From Porodaedalea pini (taxonomy: Eukaryota > Basidiomycota > Agaricomycetes > Hymenochaetales > Hymenochaetaceae), in contig NBAY01000005.1 in NCBI GenBank assembly GCA_002794775.1, forward strand, positions 248,001 to 312,000: a stretch of 64,000 nucleotides of DNA. The letters run 5' to 3'. Positions 38,960-41,430 of this stretch are shown piece after piece (within the stretch, counting starts at the first letter, position 1; every line of letters begins with the position of its first letter). The notes under the pieces were generated by a model. It was not told the DNA's origin, did no database searches, and saw only the letters and a program-made list of their open reading frames with translations. The position numbers and the translations under genes were made by a program.

Positions 38960-41430
38960 ACACCTCCTTGGGACAGTATACCTCCTTGGGACACATTGCA
39001 TTTTCTCCATCAATTCTTAAGCAATCTGTCTGAAAATAATTCTGCATGCAGCCTTTAATGTCTGTTACCTATGTCTGTAATATGAAGCCAGTTGGTGCAT
39101 AGAAAAAAAAAATATGGGTCATTGAGTGCCAAAAATTGACTATCTTATGTCCTGCTCTTTCAGGGATTTGCTAATTTTAAATTTTCAGACAGTTATTTTA
39201 CTCAACAAATTAGGTCTGGGTATTATAGGACATATAGAGAGCAACCATGTTAATTTTTTGAGCTTTGAAAGTTGGTTTAGATGTTCTGTTGCAGCAAAGA
39301 GTCTAGGAGGCTTTGAAAGCGTGACAGAGGATTTTTGCCACGTTGATCAATGTGATTATGTCATCATTTCTTTGTGCCGCACAATCCATGTCAATTTTAT
39401 TCTCAAAAGTCTTAATCTCTCTTTGTCTAAAGCACAAAATTAGAAGCAACAAAGAGTTCAACCCTTGATGGCGGTATACACTTGATGAACTTGTCAAGGC
39501 ATTGGGTGGGGTGCTGAACGGTCTCCTGGAGCTCCTGCTTGACCTTGCCGAGACCACCGATGTCGTCCCACTTGACGGTGGGCACCTCGGCGACCGTCTC
39601 GCGGAGTGCTGACGGGTTGGACGAACCAAGAGCGAAGCGGAAGTTTTCCATCGTCACACCGAGTGCGTCGAGTACCTCGGCATCAATAGTATCCTCGTCG
39701 AGGTCGATGAGTTCCATCTTCTCCCGAATTTGCTGCATAGCGGCTTCCGAGCAGAGTGGGGCGATATCAGAGCCGACGTAGCTGTGAGTGTCGGCGGCAA
39801 TATTGAAGCAATATTAAGTATGTAGTGTTAGAAAGATGGCAATAATAAGTATATACCTGCTCGAGATCGACATCGTCGGCCAATTTCATGTTCTTCGTGT
39901 GAATACGAAGAATCTCGAGACGCCCAGTAGGATCAGGAATACCGATGTCTACTTCGCGATCGAAGCGTCCGAAGCGACGAAGTGCAGGGTCAATTGTGTT
40001 GGGCCGGTTCGTTGCGGCCATGACCACGACGTTCGACCGTGCCTTCAGGCCGTCCATGAGCGTAAGGAGTTGCGAGACAACATGGCGTTCGACTTCGCCA
40101 TTGGTCTTTGGAAAAAAAAAATGTCAAGTCTGCATATCCGGCAACATTAAATATTCACCTTTTCACGCTTGGAAGCGATCGAGTCAATTTCATCAATGAA
40201 GATGATTGCATGTGAATTCTTCTCGGCCTCCTCGAATGCCTTACAGAGGTTGCTTTCAGATTCACCAGCTATCTTACTCATGATCTCCGGGCTGTTGATC
40301 AAGAAGAAGAATGCGCCGGTCTCGTTCGCCACCGCACGCGCCATGAGAGTCCTACCGGTACCGGGAGGACCATACATGAGGATACAACGAGGCTTGATAC
40401 CGATGGACTTGAAGAGTTGTGGATGGCGAAGAGGGAGCTCAACGAGCTCGCGGACCTGCGCCATCTGCTTCCGGCAACCACCAATGTCGTCGTAGCCGAC
40501 ATCGTTGAGGCTTGATTTCTCGTCTTCACACTTCACCGAGTCACCCTCTATCACGAAGCGGTCAACTCTATAAATTTCCACCTATACAATAGATATGCAT
40601 ACCAGTGTGGATGACGGTATCTTGAGCAACAATGCAGTACTCTGCAGGATTGGTCTCTATAACCTTGAATTTACCCTCACGCATGCCACCGTGGACCTTG
40701 AGTGGGTCACCCTTGTGCAGCAGGCGGTACGCCTCGAGGAAGTACAGCTTGAGATAGTCAGGGAAGGACGTGAACACGTTTTCCGTACTGGATAACAGGC
40801 AGCGGCGAGACATGAACAAGGTCGGCGAGCTTGACGCGCAGATTGTTGCACGCAATCTTGTTCATCTGAATCTTGCCTTCTTTGACCGAGCCATCCTCGC
40901 TTACGAGGAAGATGAGTACGGTGTCTCTCCACTTCTTTCCCCTGTTATTTCGCTGTTAGATAATGTGGCGCGTATAATGCAAAAGGAGCCTACCTGACGA
41001 GGACGGTGTAGCCACGAAAGAGGCTGAGCTTCTCCATCGGCGCGGGGTGGAACGTGCACAGTGCACACTAAATGTATACATCGTTCAGCTCCCAGAATGA
41101 CAGTGATAGCATACGTGTAAAACACATTCACCTGAGTTATCGCTGTTGGTTGTATCATTGACAAGCGTGAATGAAGGCTTGATGTCGAACTGACTCCTGT
41201 GTATGCATTAATGTGACAATGTCACATGGTGTCCCAAGGAGATATAATTGTGACAAACAACCACTGATTTTCTTTGGCTCATATCTCTTTAATTATTTGA
41301 GAAGAAAATTTATACTCTCAATGTTTGTGTAGCACCTTTCATCTAGTTCTATTCCATATTTTTTAAATATAGAAAATGTTGTGTTTAGAGCATGCAGGAG
41401 GCAACCTCTGAACGTGTCCCAAGGAGGTGT
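38960..41430. mobile_element. TIR element carrying a captured CDC48 fragment
   Basis: A 16-bp terminal inverted repeat, ACACCTCCTTGGGACA, is found at 38960-38975 and inverted at 41415-41430. A second inverted pair lies just inside (TATACCTCCTTGGGACAC at 38977-38994 and its 17/18 inverse at 41229-41246). Between them lies a CDC48 gene fragment that lacks both ends. The flanks of the fragment are AT-rich. No transposase is encoded. A target-site duplication was not obvious. The structure resembles Pack-type TIR elements that carry host gene pieces. The nested TIR pairs leave the true border uncertain. Confidence 0.65.
39430..41195 (-). pseudogene. truncated CDC48/p97 AAA ATPase copy
   Basis: In order the minus strand shows the end of the N-domain start (FTLVNDTTNSDNS), [52 protein letters not shown] and [20 protein letters not shown]. 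The D1 ATPase follows ([52 protein letters not shown]), then the linker up to [19 protein letters not shown]. Similarity fades at about 39,445, just before the D2 Walker A. The first ~30 residues and the whole of D2 are absent. The D1 Walker A lysine has become arginine (GKT to GRT), and frame problems occur near 40,600. Several introns remain, so the copy arose from DNA, not mRNA. CDC48 is essential, so a full gene must exist elsewhere. Confidence 0.85.

Follow-up and report, generated by a model that had tools for sequence, protein, structure and literature searches.

Transduplication in fungi and Pack-Mariner elements in plants have already been described, so that the kind of element reported here is known. 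In the ascomycete Pyrenophora tritici-repentis, a hAT element carries a histone H3-like gene (H3L; Manning et al. 2013, PMC3538342). That paper describes a transposase-bearing element of ~5.6 kb with the captured gene and a recombinant, non-autonomous derivative of ~2.3 kb that keeps the gene and a piece of the transposase. Both forms have multiplied in one genome, and H3L is mostly open, with ESTs. The same paper reports a P. tritici-repentis Tc1/Mariner family of 46 members with a non-transposase open reading frame (ORF; PF08946) between its terminal inverted repeats (TIRs); both coding regions are full-length in 31 copies, and the passage on this family names neither a donor gene nor introns. 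In Pseudocercospora fijiensis and relatives, hAT–histone H3 transduplication captured and amplified an essential housekeeping gene, the copies being inactivated and the original kept; the captured gene lacks introns, a transcript or retrocopy is taken to have been its source, and RIP is heavy (Dhillon et al. 2019, PMC6710886). Pack-TYPE elements, which include a Mariner subset, are non-autonomous TIR elements with pieces of coding genes; both their definition and their survey concern plants (Gisby and Catoni 2022, PMC8903248). The pogo family, with Fot1 and its relatives, combines an HTH/CENP-B-like domain with a DDE domain, and a DD35D spacing is described for several of its groups (33–40; PMC7325037).

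Here we analyze a 64,000-nucleotide stretch of Porodaedalea pini DNA (the window) that contains an element with a piece of CDC48, and we establish its anatomy, its donor gene, a transposase-bearing carrier and its dispersed, TA-flanked copies. The system resembles hAT–H3L in joining a transposase-bearing form with a shorter non-autonomous one, but it is pogo-type, intron-bearing, decayed and antisense to the transposase. Compared with Fot1 and its relatives, the carrier is longer and holds a cargo gene fragment. What is new is thus a variant, distinguished by its pogo-type transposase, intron-bearing essential-gene cargo, antisense arrangement and basidiomycete host. The fungal TIR-element cases that we found in print are the hAT with histone H3 and one Tc1/mariner with an ORF. 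No CDC48 capture or gene-carrying pogo element in a basidiomycete was found among the titles and abstract openings of part of the open-access literature, and the passages seen of PMC10853768, PMC4994206 and PMC10799480 contain no such case. In the part of the open-access literature covered, Pack-Mariner occurs in one plant paper, and Pack-Tc1, Pack-pogo and Pack-MITE occur in none. One genome here preserves three stages of capture, namely the donor gene, the transposase-bearing carrier and the multiplied non-autonomous derivative, and with the CDC48 cargo one can test whether an essential gene becomes open to silencing when a transposon carries a piece of it.

Anatomy of the element

The original prediction, made from the letters of the window, described a short-TIR element at 38960–41430 that holds part of CDC48 with its introns and a second inverted pair just inside its ends. 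Apart from the borders, this description held. The TIR core ACACCTCCTTGGGACA occurs exactly at 38960–38975 (+) and 41415–41430 (−), parts of CDC48 exons 2–7 with introns lie in between, and the second pair is present, but the transposon ends 9 bp further out on each side (38951–41439, TA-CAGT...ACTG-TA) and is bordered by TA duplications (Table 1). The outermost sequence on the left is TA followed by CAGTGTTTAACACCTCCTTGGGACA, and on the right TGTCCCAAGGAGGTGTCAATGACTG followed by TA. Counting TA, the 25-bp imperfect TIR becomes an inverted repeat of 27 nt that is 89% complementary and reaches 11 bp beyond the predicted ends. With up to three mismatches, the core has four sites in the window, all within the CDC48-carrying element, where 0.63 are expected, and four were reached in none of 100 shuffles; in a cruder control, 200 base shuffles gave no inverted 14-mer match between the end regions of the element. 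The TIR core in the window is not due to chance. Start to start, the inner and outer core repeats are 18 bp apart on the left and 185 bp on the right. The inner repeats are putative extra transposase-binding sites, in an arrangement that may resemble Sleeping Beauty-type ends.

The CDC48 fragment runs antisense from 41167 down to about 39443, with parts of exons 2–7 and introns 2–6 retained. As predicted, about 30 N-terminal residues are absent and D2 is missing: the loss begins at about the D2 Walker A, and conservation is already poor over the preceding 25 residues. The window copy encodes no transposase, and in the genome search its left part (38951–39442) had no matches outside the transposon family. 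The stop codon of the neighboring catalase gene lies 53 bp before the left TA, placing the element in or adjoining the catalase 3′ UTR.

Table 1. Positions, strands and supporting evidence for the element and its flank in the window
Feature	Positions	Strand	Evidence and remarks
3′ part of large-subunit catalase gene	37911–38895	+	PF06628, PF18011; two open stretches with a predicted intron between; in-frame TGA
Left TA target-site duplication	38949–38950		TA flanks 12/12 full-length elements; paralogous unfilled sites for L002, L006 and L012 have one TA
Left terminal inverted repeat CAGTGTTTAACACCTCCTTGGGACA	38951–38975	+	End comparison across copies
Retained transposase-gene 5′ region	38951–39442	+	Aligns to C126 almost to the transposase ATG; putative promoter pointing antisense into the CDC48 fragment
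Left inner repeat of TIR core ATACCTCCTTGGGACA	38978–38993	+	2 bp inside the outer repeat; also in C126; putative second transposase-binding site
Captured CDC48 fragment, intron-bearing, from partial exon 7 to partial exon 2	39443–41167	−	BLAST-supported core 39480–41125 (against C126); decayed: 41-bp exon-4 deletion, K257R
CDC48 exon 7 remnant	39443–39801	−	365/435 nt aligned; forced alignment reaches 39437, outermost part poorly conserved
CDC48 exon 6	39857–40105	−	Alignment to native gene
CDC48 exon 5, D1 Walker A with K257R	40159–40547	−	Alignment to native gene
CDC48 exon 4 with 41-bp deletion	40603–40941	−	Alignment to native gene
CDC48 exon 3	40994–41060	−	Alignment to native gene
CDC48 exon 2 remnant	41132–41167	−	36/47 nt
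Right subterminal transposon sequence	41168–41414		97% identical to C126
Right inner repeat of TIR core ATATCTCCTTGGGACA	41230–41245	−	Putative transposase-binding site
Right terminal inverted repeat	41415–41439	−	End comparison across copies
Right TA target-site duplication	41440–41441		TA in all full-length copies

Donor gene and capture at the DNA level

The genome also has an intact CDC48 gene, located away from the window element on C4. It has nine exons and encodes 814 aa, and the product is 97% identical to a Fomitiporia mediterranea protein, suggesting that the host is close to Fomitiporia. Among matches of more than 60% to CDC48 residues 27–404, C4 is the sole place outside the element copies. 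The retained introns indicate that DNA was copied and not mRNA, in agreement with the DNA-level capture put forward in the original prediction. Processed pseudogenes lack introns, and the presence of introns 2–6 rules out a retrocopy. Helitrons have neither TIRs nor a target-site duplication; both TIRs and the TA duplication are present here, and Helitron gene capture was rejected.

Copies in the genome and their insertion sites

A genome search with 38960–41430 as query gave 18 match rows. These resolve into 11 full-length 2.5-kb copies (L001–L010 and L012), L011 without a left end, L013 without a right end, the C126 element (three rows), the native gene at C4 and, at C8, a lone 147-bp right end of the CDC48-carrying family. 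Copies of the 2.5-kb type thus occupy 13 places (11 full, two truncated) and are 96–100% identical to the query. Pairwise identity is 99.1–99.8% among ten of the full copies and 95.7–96.0% for L012. The prediction hinged on the TIR recurring elsewhere in the genome, and it does so in these dispersed, near-identical copies: across 53.3 Mb, at one mismatch or fewer, the core has 40 sites, every one inside copies of the CDC48-carrying family, and the reversed pattern has none at the same threshold.

TA is found at both borders of all 12 full-length elements, C126 among them. The joined flanks of these 12 were searched together, and 40 of 440 candidates were scored. For three elements, paralogous repeats elsewhere read through the insertion point with a single TA: L002 at C98 (221/222 identical) and C3 (221/223), L006 at C72 (199/208) and C48 (199/207), and L012 at C72 (207/221). 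Another L002 paralogue, at C47, has TG where TA is expected, and an L008 paralogue, which departs by 4 nt at the junction, says nothing about the site; for the remaining eight full-length elements, no unfilled site turned up among the 40 of 440 candidates scored. The BLASTN search that the prediction had called for therefore yielded the intact gene, further copies, target duplications and paralogous unfilled sites, and the dispersed copies together with the unfilled sites rule out a simple decayed gene at the locus. The likeness to Pack-type elements is also sound, as the 2.5-kb family is non-autonomous, holds host coding DNA between TIRs and has dispersed copies with target-site duplications; the window copy is a transposase-less derivative for which a transposase-bearing carrier, C126, exists.

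Two copies have particular surroundings. At L016 (C8, about 3335–4147), the 147-bp right end abuts another TIR element (CAGTCAAAGACGCGTCC...) and is probably nested or rearranged. At L009 (C3), the right flank of the element is ~1.2 kb from an AAA-ATPase frame that presumably resembles a proteasome Rpt subunit.

A transposase-bearing carrier of pogo type

The C126 element (L015 2558–7717, minus strand) is 5,160 bp long and has the TIRs and TA of the 2.5-kb family. Its predicted transposase has 751 aa in two exons, with no internal stop in the spliced frame. Scanned separately with curated cut-offs, the two exons match HTH_Tnp_Tc5 (PF03221, 32.7 bits, cut-off 22.2) and DDE_1 (PF03184, 62.5 bits, cut-off 22). 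Counted by eye in the translation, 35 residues separate the second Asp from the third (DD35D). By these pogo-family traits, namely the HTH_Tnp_Tc5/CENP-B-like and DDE_1 domains, a spacing within DD30-35D, the TA duplication and short TIRs, C126 and the 2.5-kb elements are placed with the pogo/Tc1-mariner elements. C126 is the sole copy of its transposase subfamily found, the other 16 match rows being 32–46% identical (one partial row, 48%). Among the matches listed (120 of 141), all homologues bearing organism names are basidiomycete, and the best is 46% identical over 72%.

In C126, 1,873 bp of CDC48 lie between the transposase stop codon and the right end, on the strand opposite to the transposase. 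The captured stretch begins at a 3′ splice site, no more than 2 nt from where exon 2 starts. Its other end falls within the intron that follows exon 7, just short of another 3′ splice site and a few nt from exon 8. At the right junction, ~150 bp of filler, seen solely in C126, separate CDC48 from the right end; a host origin of the filler was rejected, as it has no genome match outside the family.

The length of C126 minus the capture is 3,287 bp. We took 11 of the 16 related match rows and found TIR pairs in seven (that of L053 with only 20/24 matches) and no credible pair in four. Six of the seven paired pogo relatives are 2,697–3,171 bp long and the seventh, L043, is 4,267 bp. No captured host gene was seen in the elements with TIR pairs, their contents being judged by length, and recurrent capture in these relatives was accordingly rejected. 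In L043 (C79, 1584–5850), a 1,253-bp TGT...ACA insert relative to a 3,010-bp relative lies downstream of the matched N-terminal part of the transposase and looks like a solo LTR.

Apparent neutral drift and the antisense arrangement

Captured CDC48 appears to evolve as if neutral. When mutation classes are matched (with L004 as representative and the poorly aligned end of exon 7 left out), 37 of 56 exonic changes in the 2.5-kb lineage are nonsynonymous (38.1 expected), as are 24 of 35 in the C126 lineage (23.9 expected). The changes common to both lineages relative to the native gene include 6 nonsynonymous of 25, where 18.1 are expected; so low a count was reached in none of 5000 simulations. 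A count with the exon 7 end and the family consensus gives 51 nonsynonymous and 26 synonymous changes in the 2.5-kb lineage. Indels have disrupted the frame as well: 41 bp of exon 4 are deleted in the 2.5-kb family, which breaks the frame, and the CDC48 part of C126 contains several frameshifting indels. The near-neutral count and the deletion bear out the decayed copy of the original prediction, and neutrality and frame damage together rule out a functional CDC48 fragment.

At CpG, where 34% of C reside, fall 33 of the 53 C-to-T changes of the 2.5-kb lineage. L012 has diverged most among the full copies, and C-to-T or G-to-A changes at CpG make up 54 of its 101 substitutions; in the ten young copies, CpG accounts for only 12 of 34 C-to-T changes. 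This pattern fits methylation of the older copies, and the genome has three DNA-methylase matches, weak but above cut-off. The observed/expected CpG ratio is 1.13 in the captured part and 0.19 in the left end, as expected if the captured part was acquired later.

An alternative reading, which we regard as unlikely, makes the fragment regulatory: transcribed as CDC48 antisense RNA from the retained transposase 5′ region or from a neighboring gene such as the catalase gene, it would enter an RNAi pathway and dampen or mark CDC48. The layout is suggestive, for the left region that was kept stops close to where the transposase ATG used to be and is directed into CDC48 in antisense, and we hypothesize from it that this region and the catalase gene would both transcribe CDC48 antisense. 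With the native coding sequence the fragment shares 415 perfect 21-mers and a perfect match of 82 nt, RdRP and Piwi-domain matches above cut-off are present in the genome, and the substitutions of L012 suggest methylation. Yet the fragment drifts as if neutral, the young copies show few changes at CpG, and the native counterpart has a CpG ratio of 1.27 and so gives no hint that methylation and mutation affected it together with the copies. We think it quite improbable that the transposon copies, at least 12, act as a dispersed source of antisense CDC48 RNA through an orphaned transposase promoter; if they did, the transposon, or the fungus through RNAi, would gain a handle on an essential gene.

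The Piwi-domain matches form a pattern of their own. Nine fragments share the same 179-aa open frame and similar companions (C93:26k, C28:86k and 112k, C51:239k, C3:1526k, C56:160k, C17:131k, C6:1078k and C10:367k), and two more differ in length (C98:56k and C179:3k). It looks as though an Argonaute-like gene has multiplied as a dispersed repeat.

A probable single capture followed by loss of the transposase

We are confident in the overall explanation that a pogo-type element captured CDC48, lost its transposase in one lineage and spread in trans with CDC48 as a neutral passenger. In a comparison that included a MAFFT alignment, the 2.5-kb family follows C126 over the left ~490 bp, nearly to the transposase ATG, and then continues with CDC48 exon 7; the best reading is thus that it arose by deletion from a C126-like element. 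Identity between C126 and the window copy is 89–92% over the left end and CDC48 part and 97% at the right end, so that C126 would not itself be the element that underwent the deletion but a sister of it.

If C126 and the 2.5-kb lineage had captured almost the same CDC48 stretch independently, this could explain why the ends of the stretch differ between them and why the captured part of C126 is just 91.3% identical to that of the window copy (94.1% for C126 and the native gene, 90.7% for the window copy and the native gene). We consider two independent captures highly improbable, as the two lineages share the orientation and position of CDC48, a 9-bp intron difference from the native gene, although that change could be in the native gene, and six nonsynonymous changes. 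Five of these, L45F, T49P, V93I, I222V and M284I, change residues that are otherwise the same in the native protein and in four basidiomycete relatives. The intron difference and the six changes favor one capture.

Capture followed by loss of the transposase would have proceeded as follows. A pogo-type (Tc1/mariner-like) transposon would have copied ~1.87 kb of genomic CDC48, introns included, and placed the copy between its transposase stop codon and right end, opposite in orientation to the transposase. As no pre-capture element was found in the genome, we infer the mechanism, which may have been interrupted gap repair with template switching after excision. The simplest view is that a transposase-bearing element made the capture, C126 being one such carrier that survives, and an intron-bearing piece of an essential gene in a pogo-type element points to DNA-level capture before transposase loss. 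Comparison of the two forms suggests that, in one lineage, a deletion that began at about the transposase ATG and reached into the first part of the CDC48 D2 region then produced the 2.5-kb non-autonomous element. Transposase acting in trans (C126 encodes an uninterrupted one) probably spread this element by cut-and-paste into TA sites, with the CDC48 piece as neutral passenger DNA that would have no CDC48 protein function.

Coding capacity of the captured fragment

That the fragment encodes a truncated CDC48 (N-D1, or D1 with K257R) acting as a dominant negative or new protein is scarcely credible: exons 5–7 are stop-free in the native frame in 10 of the 11 full 2.5-kb copies, and the K-to-R change in Walker A (GPPGTGRT) that the original prediction had pointed out is found in 10 of 11, L012 having no GPPGTG match, but the fragment has neither the native start codon nor the promoter, the frame of exon 4 is broken, the splice acceptors read at their native positions, with nearby alternative AGs covered unsystematically, are AC for intron 2 in 11/11 copies and AT for intron 6 in 10/11, and exons 5–7 have 16 nonsynonymous changes where 16.0 are expected under neutrality.
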